Positions 13,598-16,775 of a stretch of 31,398 nt of DNA are shown piece after piece. The translations under genes were made by a program, and so were the position numbers. Position 1 is the stretch's first letter. Every line of letters begins with the position of its first letter. The notes under the pieces were generated by a model that saw nothing but the letters and a program-made list of their open reading frames with translations, was not told where the DNA came from and did no database searches. The stretch lies in the IMG/VR virus record IMGVR_UViG_3300030098_001887, positions 1 to 31,398 of that record; one strand, given 5' to 3'. Origin of the DNA: a virus.

Positions 13598-14746
13598 TTA
13601 TGAGAAAGCAGCAGGCTTAGTTCCTGTACCAGCGAATAATTCGACAGCAGCAGCAGGGTTAAGTGCGTCGCTTCCCATTGCGAGACGTCCTAATATCACG
13701 TCACCTTGGTAAACCACGGATATGTCTCCGCTTGTTACCTGTACTTGTGGTCCGATTGCTTCAACAACACCAGCGGCTTCCTTCTGGAAGATAAGTCCGC
13801 ATGAGTTTTCGAAGTCAGAATCACCATTACCATAAGAGTTTACAGTCTTAGTAGCTGATGTACCAGCTGTTTCATCAACCATAACAACTTCTGTGAAGCT
13901 TCCTGTGTTTCCAGGATCTGTTACTCCAGGGTTTGTTGCTGATGCATCTCCGAACTTAGTACCGAATCTTCCAAAGAATGGAATATTCATTGACTTGAAG
14001 ATCTTGATTCCAGCAATTTCGATGATGCCATTACCTGATTGTAATGCGTCACCTTGCTCGTCTCTGTTAATAAGACCATTAGAACCTACAGCTTGTATAA
14101 GTTCGTAATATTGTCTTGGGTTCAACACACCCACTCTACCTTCAGTAGAAACTCCTTTTTCGTCGAGTGCAGCAGCTGCATCGTAGAAAGCGTTTACTAA
14201 AGATGTAGAGTTGTAAGCATCAGACGCCTGAGCGTTTGTACCTACACGGATCTGTGTACCACCAGGTTCAACGAAGTTAGCCTTAGTGATAGGGCTAGCT
14301 TGTCTAGCTGCCTTAGTGATTGATCTGAAGATTTTTCTGTCATATTTTTCAGCTAATGCATAGCCAATTTTTGCAGAAATTTCTCCTCTCAAATCATAGT
14401 GTGCTAGTGTTTCATCTAGCTCATAAACAAACGCCGAACTGATTAATAGGTCGTCGCAAGTTATGGTTTTTTCAGCTACTGGAGGTGCAGAATCACTGTT
14501 TCCAAGTATGCTGTTTCCGGGGGTATGATACTCCGCCGATGTGCGTCCGGTGAAAATAAATTGTAATGATTTTCCGTTGGTCAATGTACGCTTCATTACA
14601 AGGTCACGAGCTATCGTGTTCCTTTGGAAGCCTTTGAACATTTCTCCACTGAACAATTTAAGAAATAAAGCTCTCTTATCACCAGCACCATTAGCCTGAC
14701 CTAACTGGGTAAGTCCAGCAGCCAGGGTGCTATTTTGTTGTGCCAT
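13598..14746 (-). CDS. Major capsid protein, T7 gp10-like
   Basis: This 382-residue HK97-fold shell protein compares with 345 residues for T7 gp10A. It begins MAQQNSTLAAGLTQLGQANG. The N-terminal arm carries ALFLKLFSGEMFKGFQRNT and the E-loop-like LQFIFTGRTSAEYHTPG; the body has YELDETLAHYDLRGEISAKIGYALAEKYDRKIFRSITKAA-type helices, recognisable across cyanopodovirus capsids, and GVLNPRQYYELIQ. The C-terminus ends in beta sequence, VVYQGDVILGRLAMGSDALNPAAAVEL. It has its own 190-base leader and a terminator on either side, so it can be made in higher amounts than its neighbours. I see no frameshifted minor form like T7 gp10B. Confidence 0.95.
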   Translation of the reverse strand: MAQQNSTLAAGLTQLGQANGAGDKRALFLKLFSGEMFKGFQRNTIARDLVMKRTLTNGKSLQFIFTGRTSAEYHTPGNSILGNSDSAPPVAEKTITCDDLLISSAFVYELDETLAHYDLRGEISAKIGYALAEKYDRKIFRSITKAARQASPITKANFVEPGGTQIRVGTNAQASDAYNSTSLVNAFYDAAAALDEKGVSTEGRVGVLNPRQYYELIQAVGSNGLINRDEQGDALQSGNGIIEIAGIKIFKSMNIPFFGRFGTKFGDASATNPGVTDPGNTGSFTEVVMVDETAGTSATKTVNSYGNGDSDFENSCGLIFQKEAAGVVEAIGPQVQVTSGDISVVYQGDVILGRLAMGSDALNPAAAVELFAGTGTKPAAFS

Positions 14747-14936
14747 TTAAGGAATTTAAAAAGTTAATATAAATTTCTCAGCTGAATTTGTTTTAGATCT
14801 TTTGATTTTTTGTGGTCTATCCCACCGTCTAGACGGCTAAAGGTATCCTCCGTAGAGGGCTAAAGCCAAGTGAAATGAAATCCGACTCTGAGGTGTTTCA
14901 TTTCTGTGATAGTTAAGGTGTAATCCTTCAATCAAT
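14747..14936 (-). promoter_or_regulatory. Structured leader upstream of the capsid gene
   Basis: This stretch has no gene. In transcription order it holds a 9-bp perfect hairpin with a 15-base loop (GAAATGAAA at 14904-14896 pairing with TTTCATTTC at 14880-14872), then CCTC-TACG-GAGG at 14858-14847 (a UACG tetraloop), flanked by direct copies of CTTTAGCC (14865-14858 and 14842-14835), then the 12-base perfect palindrome CCGTCTAGACGG at 14836-14825, and an AT-rich run to the start codon. None of the three hairpins is followed by a T tract, so they are not terminators. They could be mRNA-stabilising or processing structures for the capsid message, or part of a phage promoter. No known T7-type promoter consensus is recognisable, and no Shine-Dalgarno precedes the capsid ATG. 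Confidence 0.55.
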
Positions 14937-14938
14937 AT

Positions 14939-14966
14939 AAAAAGGGAAAGGAGTCCGAAGACTCCC
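14939..14966 (-). terminator. Intrinsic terminator between micro-peptide gene and capsid leader
   Basis: On the minus strand GGAGTC-TTCG-GACTCC (14965-14950) forms a 6-bp stem with a UUCG loop, followed by TTTCCCTTTTT (14949-14939). The T tract is interrupted by CCC, so termination may be partial. It would end the psbA/peptide transcript before the capsid leader. Confidence 0.75.
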
Positions 14967-14992
14967 GTCCAGATTGTGTTAAGTCGCACTTA

Positions 14993-15046
14993 TTACTTTG
15001 TAGTTTTAGTGTACTCAACGCCACGATATATGTAAGTTACTGTCAT
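14993..15046 (-). CDS. 17-residue YRG peptide downstream of riboswitch-like RNA
   Basis: This small frame starts at the ATG at 15046 and encodes MTVTYIYRGVEYTKTTK, ending in TAA at 14993. GGAG (15056-15053) lies 6 bases before the ATG, a better ribosome site than most large genes here have. The core YxYRGVxY resembles the YRGxxY signature of small cyanobacterial DUF4278-type proteins, from memory of that family. The gene is framed by the pseudoknotted RNA 15 bases upstream and the terminator 27 bases downstream, so it looks like an independent regulated unit. Known Downstream-peptide RNAs of marine cyanobacteria precede ORFs of about 17-100 codons, which fits. The function of the peptide is unknown. 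Confidence 0.75.
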   Translation of the reverse strand: MTVTYIYRGVEYTKTTK

Positions 15047-15060
15047 TGTAAGCTCCATAT

Positions 15061-15116
15061 ACCAAAGCCCCGTTCCATGCTTTGGAGTCATGCGTCCCGT
15101 TAAGGATGAACGGACG
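15061..15116 (-). ncRNA. Pseudoknotted RNA, probable Downstream-peptide (glutamine-II) riboswitch
   Basis: Reading the minus strand from 15113, CCGTTC (15113-15108) pairs with GAACGG (15075-15070), enclosing two short hairpins: TCC/GGA (15106-15104 with 15097-15095) and CATG/CATG (15092-15089 with 15079-15076). The second hairpin loop contains CCAAAG (15085-15080), which is perfectly complementary to CTTTGG (15067-15062) just downstream, making a 6-bp pseudoknot. The Shine-Dalgarno of the 17-residue gene starts 6 bases after that strand. A compact three-stem junction with CGTTCA near the 5' end, a pseudoknot and a tiny downstream ORF is the arrangement of the Downstream-peptide motif, shown to bind L-glutamine and known from Synechococcus, Prochlorococcus and a cyanophage. 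Ligand is inferred by this resemblance. Control is probably translational, through access to the GGAG. Confidence 0.72.
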
Positions 15117-15122
15117 TGGCTA

Positions 15123-15326
15123 TTATTTTTTACCCTTCTTAGGCGGGCGACCTCTTTTTGTACCGTAAGTACCTTTACCTTTAGGCATGATTTTTTCAGT
15201 AATTATAATACAGTTATTTGTATAGTCAGCGGTAAATTGTAAGGGAGCGTTAGGGCTCCAGCACAGTTCTTCATATAAAGAATTTAGTGTTGCCATATCT
15301 TCATAAAGATCAGCAGGTTTTTCCAT
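15123..15326 (-). CDS. 67-residue protein with basic AT-hook-like tail
   Basis: I do not recognise the first 45 residues (acidic, with DLYEDMATLNSLYEELCW). The last 21, from Met47, are very basic and contain MPKGKGTYGTKRGRPPKKG; RGRPPKK is the core of an AT-hook, a minor-groove DNA-binding motif. Short stand-alone phage proteins of the MPKGKGTYGxxxGRPxKK type exist to my recollection, so this may be a fusion of two small ORFs, or the tail may also be made from the internal ATG at 15188. The start codon overlaps the psbA stop by one base (TAATG), so it is translated with psbA. It ends 6 bases before the riboswitch-like RNA. Confidence 0.75.
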   Translation of the reverse strand: MEKPADLYEDMATLNSLYEELCWSPNAPLQFTADYTNNCIIITEKIMPKGKGTYGTKRGRPPKKGKK

Positions 15327-16408
15327 TATCCAATGTTGGGTGAAGTTAAAGCTACCGATGTTTCATCGACAGCTGCTAAGTCAAGAGGGAAATTGTGTGC
15401 ATTTCTTTCGTGCATGACTTCAAAGCCAAGGTTGGCTCTATTTACGACGTCAGCCCATGTTGGGACAATCTTGCCATTAGCATCAACAATGGATTGGTTA
15501 AAGTTAAATCCGTTAAGGTTGAAAGCCATGGTGCAGACGCCCATACTGGTGAGCCATATGCCAACCACGGGCCAAGTAGCCAAAAAGAAATGTAAAGAGC
15601 GAGAATTATTAAAGCTTGCATATTGAAAAATTAAACGACCAAAGTAACCATGGGCAGCTACAATATTATAAGTCTCTTCTTCTTGACCAAATTTGTAGCC
15701 ATAGTTTTGAGATTCAAGTCCAGTAGTCTCTTTAATAAGCGAAGAAGTAACAAGACTTCCATGCATAGCAGCAAAAAGAGATCCACCGAATACCCCAGCA
15801 ACACCGAGCATATGGAACGGATGCATGAGGATATTGTGTTCTGCCTGGAATACGAACATAAAGTTAAAAGTACCAGAAATACCAAGAGGCATACCATCAC
15901 TAAAACTTCCCTGTCCGAAAGGATAAACTAAGAATACAGCTAATGCTGCTGAGAGAGGAGCTGTGTAAGCTACAAAGATCCAAGGTCTCATTCCTAATCT
16001 GTAAGATAGTTCCCACTGTCTTCCTGCATAGGCGGCTGCTCCTATTAAAAAATGAAAGACAATAAGTTGATATGGGCCACCATTATATAACCATTCGTCT
16101 AAGGTTGCGGCTTCCCATATAGGATAAAAATGTAGTCCAATTGCGTTCGAGGAGGGGACGACAGCTCCTGATATAATATTGTTTCCATATAATAATGAAC
16201 CGGAAACTGGCTCACGTATGCCGTCTATATCGACAGGCGGTGCTGCGATAAAGGCAAGTATAAAACATGTGGTAGCTGCGAGTAAACAAGGTATCATAAG
16301 CACCCCGAACCACCCCACGTAGAGGCGGTTTTCTGTACTAGTTACCCACTCACAAAACTTTTCCCAATTAGTAGTAGTATTATTTTTAGTAAGTGATATT
16401 GTTGCCAT
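15326..16408 (-). CDS. psbA: Photosystem II D1 protein
   Basis: This full-length D1 (360 residues) binds the redox cofactors of photosystem II in the thylakoid membrane; a phage copy replaces the host D1, which turns over quickly in light while host synthesis is shut off. The key residues are present: the YZ tyrosine in WIFVAYTAP, the Mn-cluster Asp in [10 protein letters not shown], Glu-His in [13 protein letters not shown], and His-Glu plus the C-terminal DLA processing site in [16 protein letters not shown]. The pheophytin-contact position (residue 130 in standard numbering, 131 here) is Gln, as in low-light D1 forms, not Glu. There is no intron and no frameshift. It lies 4 bases after the beta-barrel-like gene and one base before the 67-residue gene, forming a compact cassette with hli. 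Confidence 0.99.
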
Positions 16409-16412
16409 TTAA

Positions 16413-16775
16413 TTAGAATGAGAATTTAGCACCTAATTGTGTGCCGTAAGTATTAGTTGTGTCTTTGTCGAATATATTAGCGAAAGATACTTCACCATAT
16501 ATACCGAGTCTTTTCGTTGCTGCTACAGAGCCACCGAATTTACCAGAGTAGTTTGAATCTGAATCAGCTCCGTCTACGGAATTAATCGTCTTGCCACCCT
16601 GTACATACCAATCTAGTGCTCCTAGTGTGTTCTCGTAACCAAGATGTACATCAGTTGCTCTGGACTGATAATCAGATCCGGAATAAGTAGCGTTAGTCTC
16701 TACGTTAACGTAAGGACCAGCAAAAACAGGAGCTGATATAGTAGCTGCTGCTAAAGTTAATGCAATAGTTTTCAT
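16413..16775 (-). CDS. Small secreted beta-barrel-like protein (outer-membrane type)
   Basis: This 120-residue protein has a clear Sec signal peptide: MKTIALTLAAATISAPVFA, with likely cleavage before GPYVNV. The mature part (about 101 residues) alternates polar and hydrophobic residues in about six strands (PYVNVETNATY, TDVHLGYENTLG, LDWYVQGGKTI, SGKFGGSVAATKRLG, IYGEVSFANI, YGTQLGAKFSF). It ends in Phe, the classic C-terminal signal of outer-membrane beta-barrels recognised by BamA. It starts inside the hli stop (TAATG overlap) and ends 4 bases before psbA, so it belongs to the photosynthesis cassette. I recall similar short proteins in cyanomyoviruses but no assigned function. It is too short for a normal porin. 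It could form a small barrel, modify the host envelope, block superinfection, or be a periplasmic beta protein. Confidence 0.8.
   Translation of the reverse strand: MKTIALTLAAATISAPVFAGPYVNVETNATYSGSDYQSRATDVHLGYENTLGALDWYVQGGKTINSVDGADSDSNYSGKFGGSVAATKRLGIYGEVSFANIFDKDTTNTYGTQLGAKFSF

Follow-up and report, generated by a model that had tools for sequence, protein, structure and literature searches.

Between psbA and the capsid gene of a lytic cyanophage lies a short structured RNA, which raises two questions: what does the RNA sense, and which gene does it control? Marine cyanophages reshape host photosynthesis and carbon flow. The RNA was found in a 31,398-nt IMG/VR virus record, the whole of which was analyzed here (the window). 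Its genes, every one encoded on the minus strand, run in the order RNA polymerase, DNA polymerase, ribonucleotide reductase, portal, scaffold, hli, psbA, capsid, and tail tubes; their names come in part from Pfam/PHROG hits, in part from annotated relatives, and for the rest from inspection of the proteins. Such an order is that of T7-like cyanopodoviruses and agrees with the lytic cyanopodovirus setting described in an earlier sequence-only reading, which had proposed a glutamine-sensing RNA of the Downstream-peptide class at this locus.

Identity and fold of the aptamer

Downstream-peptide RNA (RF01704) now carries the name Glutamine-II. A cmscan search returned RF01704 at 15115-15061 on the minus strand, where the element had been placed, with 48.4 bits (gathering cut-off 33 bits), an E value of 5.3e-9, and a full-length match to model positions 1-60. 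No other Rfam family was matched anywhere in the 31,398-nt window. The proposed class was thereby upheld, and Glutamine-I (glnA, RF01739) was rejected as the class because the window scores 14.8 bits against a cut-off of 35 bits.

The helices were mapped on the crystal structure of a Prochlorococcus Glutamine-II RNA (PMC6698751); all coordinates below refer to the minus strand. The pseudoknot (PK) joins CGUUC (15112-15108) to GAACG (15075-15071). P1 pairs UCC (15106-15104) with GGA (15097-15095) in the hairpin TCC-TTAACG-GGA at 15106-15095, and is followed by the linking strand CGCA (15094-15091). P2 pairs CCAAAG (15085-15080) with CUUUGG (15067-15062). The sequence-only reading had found these helices and arranged them otherwise. 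Its outer helix CCGTTC/GAACGG (15113-15108/15075-15070) is real and equals the PK of the crystal structure, with a sixth base pair that competes with the C19:G41 pair, and its pseudoknot CCAAAG/CTTTGG is a real helix that equals P2. One of its two inner hairpins is P1, and the second falls outside the accepted fold.

The pocket is complete. Compared with the crystallized sequence, the conserved pocket segments of RF01704 are present in the window as CGUUCA, CGCA, and AUGGAACGGG, and in the numbering of PMC6698751 the whole set C1, G2, G18, C19, A33, and G35-G42 is found. It includes the contact nucleotides C1, G2, G18, C39, and G40, as well as both the C19:G41 and the A33:G42 pair. RF01704 elements occupy the 5' UTR of an ORF of 17-100 aa, and a 17-aa ORF follows here at 15046-14993. 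By these sequence features the window element is a Glutamine-II riboswitch, and its intact pocket predicts glutamine binding. The crystallized RNA has a Kd of 190 μM for L-glutamine (PMC6698751), and relatives of this class respond to glutamine as ON switches that are likely translational (PMC6698751, PMC6316151). By analogy with these relatives, the phage copy would also bind glutamine and turn expression on.

A conserved-core pattern matched at least 120 loci in IMG/VR; in genomes of bacteria and archaea it matched at least 119. Requiring at least 5 pairs in P2 left 122 phage and 69 genome-collection loci among the matches listed. Since the pattern fixes the PK sequence, helix covariation was judged on P1 and P2, in 106 distinct phage copies among the matches listed. 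Both helices consist of 98-100% standard pairs through P2 pair 5, and P2 pairs 6 and 7 are standard in 88% and 80% of these copies. Compensating changes, which the earlier reading had named as a check, are abundant: many compensatory pair types occur in P1 and P2 above the level of shuffles, and P2 pair 4 (TA57/AT27/CG17) is standard in 105/106 copies, compared with 55 in shuffles. When whole records were searched with RF01704, 26 of 27 held exactly one copy over the cut-off; the remaining record (L119) was a chance pattern match that lacks P2 and has no such copy. None of the 14 control genomes exceeded the cut-off. The E value of 5e-9, the empty controls, and the compensatory changes together indicate that the window element is not a chance match.

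Genome context and the capsid leader RNA

On the minus strand of the window, the switch is preceded by psbA (15326-16408) and a 67-aa DUF7191 ORF (15123-15326), and followed by the capsid gene, which starts at 14746. DNA resembling the DUF7191 ORF underlies hypothetical proteins in the T4-like phages ACG-2014b and P-TIM68. Farther upstream, Phage_OMP (PF24653), a 120-aa cyanophage outer-membrane-like beta-barrel protein, is encoded at 16413-16775 (minus). Its relatives stand before or after the switch, varying by phage, which suggests that accessory genes insert at this junction.

Leaving out the window, 121 phage loci among the matches listed were compared. Going downstream along the strand of the switch, a capsid gene is met within 3 kb in 96; in most of the other 25 the sequence stops soon after the switch, the exception being L017, with 2.9 kb and no capsid hit. 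psbA is found within 3 kb upstream in 83/121. In several contigs without psbA upstream (L022, L030, and L063), the switch follows scaffold or hli and precedes the capsid gene where the sequence reaches it; in L042 psbA lies downstream. These contigs, in which no psbA separates the switch from hli or scaffold, rule psbA out as the target. The psbA/capsid neighborhood that had been stressed for this locus was right as to the place upstream of the capsid gene, and the proximity of psbA is incidental, as the switch persists without it.

Searches of 23 cyanopodovirus records with RF01704 gave a copy over the cut-off in 14, one per genome and always in the region that precedes the capsid gene: P-SSP7, 9515-10a, P-GSP1, MedDCM S05-C849 and S28-C3, S-RIP1, S-RIP2, S-TIP28, S-TIP37, P-SSP3, NATL1A-7, S-CBP1, S-CBP4, and SS120-1. 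The S05-C849 record stops short of the capsid gene, and the order in S-RIP1 is read across the record ends because this linear record has its capsid gene at the opposite end. Weak remnants below the cut-off occur in S-SBP1 and S-CBP3, and no copy was found in the records of S-B28, DSL-LC07, S-SRP01, S-CBP2, S-CBP42, P60, and Syn5. T7-like cyanophages carry the switch almost as a standard feature, with or without psbA.

This synteny raises the possibility that the switch governs the capsid operon, with glutamine gating the late structural genes through a common transcript, and the site between scaffold or auxiliary genes and the capsid gene is indeed conserved from genus to genus, in phages with psbA as in those without. 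We regard this as improbable. Among the phage loci listed, the capsid start lies about 230-1500 nt past the switch, often behind other ORFs; in the window a terminator-like hairpin intervenes; and the expression platform described below acts at the start of a peptide. Moreover, the capsid gene has a conserved leader RNA of its own, which is found also in phages that lack the switch.

The leader, a second structured RNA (14905-14810, core 14870-14810, minus), immediately precedes the capsid gene and represents a candidate new RNA family as judged by sequence comparison; the Rfam scan of the window had no match for it. In an RNAalifold alignment of 43 sequences, 7 of its 13 pairs are changed on both sides, with almost no breaks. 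Searched with a model of the leader, 21 of the 23 podovirus records each showed a single copy ahead of the capsid gene, strong in about 15 and weak but in place in the rest, both with and without the glutamine switch. In Syn5 and S-CBP2 the model had no hit at that gene, and it had none anywhere in the two T4-like phages and two host genomes searched. A further 56 IMG/VR loci were retrieved, and in every one the leader is followed by the capsid gene, at a distance of 47-102 nt except in one. The hairpin 5' of the leader has a tRNA T-loop-like sequence (GGUUCRANUCC or GGUGCAAGUCC) in some phages and carries CACCUCAGAGUCGGA instead in the others; examples are L006 70-167 (-), L086 2458-2553, and L012 8262-8358 (-). 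tRNA genes were considered as the source of these hairpins and discarded, as ARAGORN found none there except in NATL1A-7, where a real tRNA-Gly occupies the site (L251 1225-1295).

The YRG micropeptide

The tiny downstream ORF reported earlier was confirmed: it begins with ATG at 15046, its stop ends at 14993 (minus), and it encodes the 17-aa micropeptide MTVTYIYRGVEYTKTTK, with a YRG/DUF4278-like core. Among the matches listed, a YRG peptide follows the switch in 118/122 phage loci, and in the other four (L062, L069, L092, and L124) the sequence stops about 30 nt after the core. It is likewise present in 65 of the 69 listed genome-collection loci, the other four resembling chance pattern matches. 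The cis target of the switch is therefore almost certainly this micropeptide, and neither psbA nor the capsid gene.

After refinement, 116 phage ORFs encode peptides of 13-42 aa, most commonly 17, with exceptions of 51 and 60 aa. ATG is the start in 111/116, and 26/116 have no clear Shine-Dalgarno. Across 87 distinct nucleotide cores, the Y-R-G-x-x-Y core is invariant while its codons vary synonymously. As Y-R-G formed part of the criterion by which the ORFs were recognized, independent evidence comes from the second tyrosine, from the synonymous variation, and from a frame test. In that test the peptide frame has a pN/pS of 0.48 overall and 0.30 in close pairs, whereas values of 1.26 and 1.43 were obtained for the +1 and +2 frames, which contain stops in over half of the sequences. 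The YRG core is thus under purifying selection. Two phages keep an intact YRG peptide upstream of the capsid gene behind a decayed aptamer, namely S-CBP3 (L253; degenerated, 16.1 bits) and S-SBP1 (L245; truncated to positions 25-60, 19.6 bits), which suggests that the peptide is probably the selected product.

Host loci among the matches listed encode mostly products of 33-72 aa, usually with 2-3 YRG repeats. Two host peptides scored 33.1 and 42.9 bits with PF14105 (DUF4278), above its cut-off of 25.3 bits. Two phage peptides reached 24.5 and 20.2 bits, below that cut-off; these were other copies, the 17-aa window peptide being under the 20-aa minimum of the Pfam scan. By sequence resemblance, we take the phage peptide to be a miniature, with a single repeat, of the host DUF4278/YRG proteins.

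Just past the ORF, at 14949..14966 (minus), the window has a terminator-like hairpin, GGGAGTC-TTCG-GACTCCT, followed by TTCCCTTTTT. It may end a transcript comprising switch and peptide. Among the matches listed, 27/111 phage loci have such a site after the peptide, against about 7 in shuffles, and the idea of a universal terminator was dropped on this count.

A short transcript of this kind recalls Yfr6, a host transcript of about 250 nt that has the Glutamine-II motif as its 5' UTR (PMC2864571), and a dual-function small RNA in which the transcript, not the peptide, is the main actor could be envisaged. When Prochlorococcus MED4 is infected by phage, two YRG-peptide loci show an early rise of their antisense RNAs, namely Yfr14, which lies opposite Yfr6, and asMED4_04601 (PMC2518516). 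The rise of Yfr14, together with the hairpin in the window, would fit such an RNA. Strong protein-level selection on the YRG core and a sequence 3' of the ORF that differs widely among phages make it an unlikely account.

The expression platform and its place among known systems

How could the aptamer control the peptide? The Shine-Dalgarno GGAG lies at 15056-15053, 5 nt beyond P2. Pairing of GGAG with a linker anti-Shine-Dalgarno CUCC, which is present in the window, was considered as the platform and rejected, as it is not conserved in other phages (for example, AAACC in L005 and L002). In a calculation without pseudoknot energies, Shine-Dalgarno accessibility was equal with P2 formed and broken. 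This calculation exposed a pairing of the Shine-Dalgarno into the ORF, which we propose as the platform helix P3 (15025..15063, minus). In P3, GGUAUAUG (15063-15056), which includes the first G of GGAG, pairs with CAUAUAUC in the Y-I-Y-R codons (15032-15025), and the stem extends inward across the remaining Shine-Dalgarno. G15063 and G15062 are common to P2 and P3. Accessibility is unchanged in the calculation because the rest of P3 is still paired when P2 forms.

P3 is the minimum-free-energy fold of the window region (-10.7 kcal/mol, z -2.3), and over 67 short-peptide loci the mean z of the region is -1.75; in many longer-peptide phages P3 is weak or missing. The pairing covaries between UTR and codons. 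In 97 sequences, 74% of P3 positions pair in register, vs at most 49% when one strand is slid by 1-3 nt, and three pairs beat all shuffles (71/97 vs a mean of 50, 67 vs 43, and 71 vs 50). The UTR is coupled to codon -1 in 46/46 cases: leaders that have UA at both covarying sites go with GTA (V) and relatives, and those that have CU there go with AAG (K) and relatives. All six independent tree pairs are concordant for this coupling (p 0.03), a figure that co-transfer could inflate as UTR and codons lie about 40 nt apart. Tyrosine codon usage follows the same geometry, with TAT in 81/87 at the P3-paired Y0 and TAC in 72/87 at the unpaired Y+5. Removing the two shared G weakens P3 from a median of -10.8 to -7.0 kcal/mol.

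We consider it probable that the element is a Glutamine-II riboswitch that turns on translation of the YRG micropeptide in cis, via P3, at high glutamine. When glutamine is low, the leader GGUAUAUGGAG, which contains the Shine-Dalgarno and overlaps the last pairs of P2, would pair with the Y-V/I-Y-R codons; with P3 formed, initiation at the peptide start would be blocked (OFF state). Glutamine would stabilize the PK and P2, and P2 would claim the two G needed by P3, weakening it by about 4 kcal/mol. Loosening of P3 in this way, which is expected from the two G common to both helices, would free the Shine-Dalgarno so that the peptide is made. For the window RNA, we infer that switching rests on the competition for the shared pairs and on PK stability.

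Host DUF4278 proteins resemble the N-terminus of the glutamine synthetase inactivating factor IF17 (PMC6316151). The phage peptide might thus act on host nitrogen metabolism, possibly on glutamine synthetase, as a mini-mimic of these proteins, and when made at high glutamine it could tune the host enzyme. More tentatively, and with appreciable doubt, we suggest that T7-like cyanophages adjust host glutamine synthesis through a glutamine-activated, one-repeat DUF4278 mimic whose own codons form the OFF hairpin. If this is true, a whole nitrogen sensor-effector circuit would be contained in about 120 nt.

That the element is a vestige or passenger of host origin without function in the phage, as its lack of a clear copy in 7/23 podovirus records might suggest, is very hard to reconcile with compensatory changes in P1, P2, and P3 and a pN/pS well under 1 across diverse genomes. 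An aptamer variant sensing a ligand other than glutamine is just as improbable: P1 and P2 of the phage copies differ in length and sequence from the host ones, but the ligand-contact nucleotides are all identical to those of the crystallized RNA.

The preferred reading, a glutamine-responsive switch for the YRG micropeptide, builds on a known class, and glutamine riboswitches in phages are also known already, from T4-like cyanophages (PMC9602691, PMC9964418) and from Melnitz and two other isolates (PMC9004378). The Glutamine-I (glnA, RF01739) elements of the marine myophages Melnitz, P-SSM2, and S-PM2 resemble the window RNA as glutamine-sensing RNAs in marine phages and belong to another aptamer class; that of Melnitz adjoins the tmRNA gene (PMC9004378). 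In our searches, the T4-like P-SSM2 and S-PM2 matched the class I model better than class II, at 35.1 (just above the cut-off) and 33.3 bits (just under). Elements of Glutamine-I type, scoring around or below the Rfam cut-off, lie at 245155-245206 in P-SSM2 (AY939844) and at 142317-142415 in S-PM2 (AJ630128), the latter as two in tandem. PhotoRC-II and manA/wcaG RNAs are likewise structured cis-regulatory RNAs near cyanophage metabolic genes (PMC2864571), and neither matched 14700-15350 at E up to 1.

What is new is the synteny across podoviruses, together with the miniature peptide and the P2/P3 platform. No account of them was found in the literature searched; as this covered few subscription papers, the lack of an account counts for little. 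The host DUF4278/YRG genes, among them Yfr6 and PMM1846 of Prochlorococcus MED4, likened to the IF17 N-terminus, share with the phage peptide a YRG core under glutamine riboswitch control, whereas the phage peptide is far shorter and its scanned copies fall under the Pfam cut-off. The presence of switch and micropeptide in P-SSP7 makes nitrogen sensing by cyanophages testable in an established infection system.

The closest known system is Glutamine-II itself (RF01704), with which the window shares the PK, P1, P2, pocket nucleotides, a short YRG ORF, and a marine cyanobacterial setting. Unlike the host copies, the window copy is carried by a lytic T7-like phage and precedes the capsid gene, and its peptide has one YRG unit (17 aa) instead of two or more in mostly 33-72 aa. 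For this class, an alternative fold hiding the ribosome binding site has been inferred in the structural literature (PMC6698751), and P2/P3 offers a concrete candidate for the expression platform. In contrast to its relatives, the window RNA is proposed to build its Shine-Dalgarno hairpin from the codons of the peptide itself, which suggests that a riboswitch can constrain the codons of its product and apparently also the amino acids (K or V ahead of YRG).
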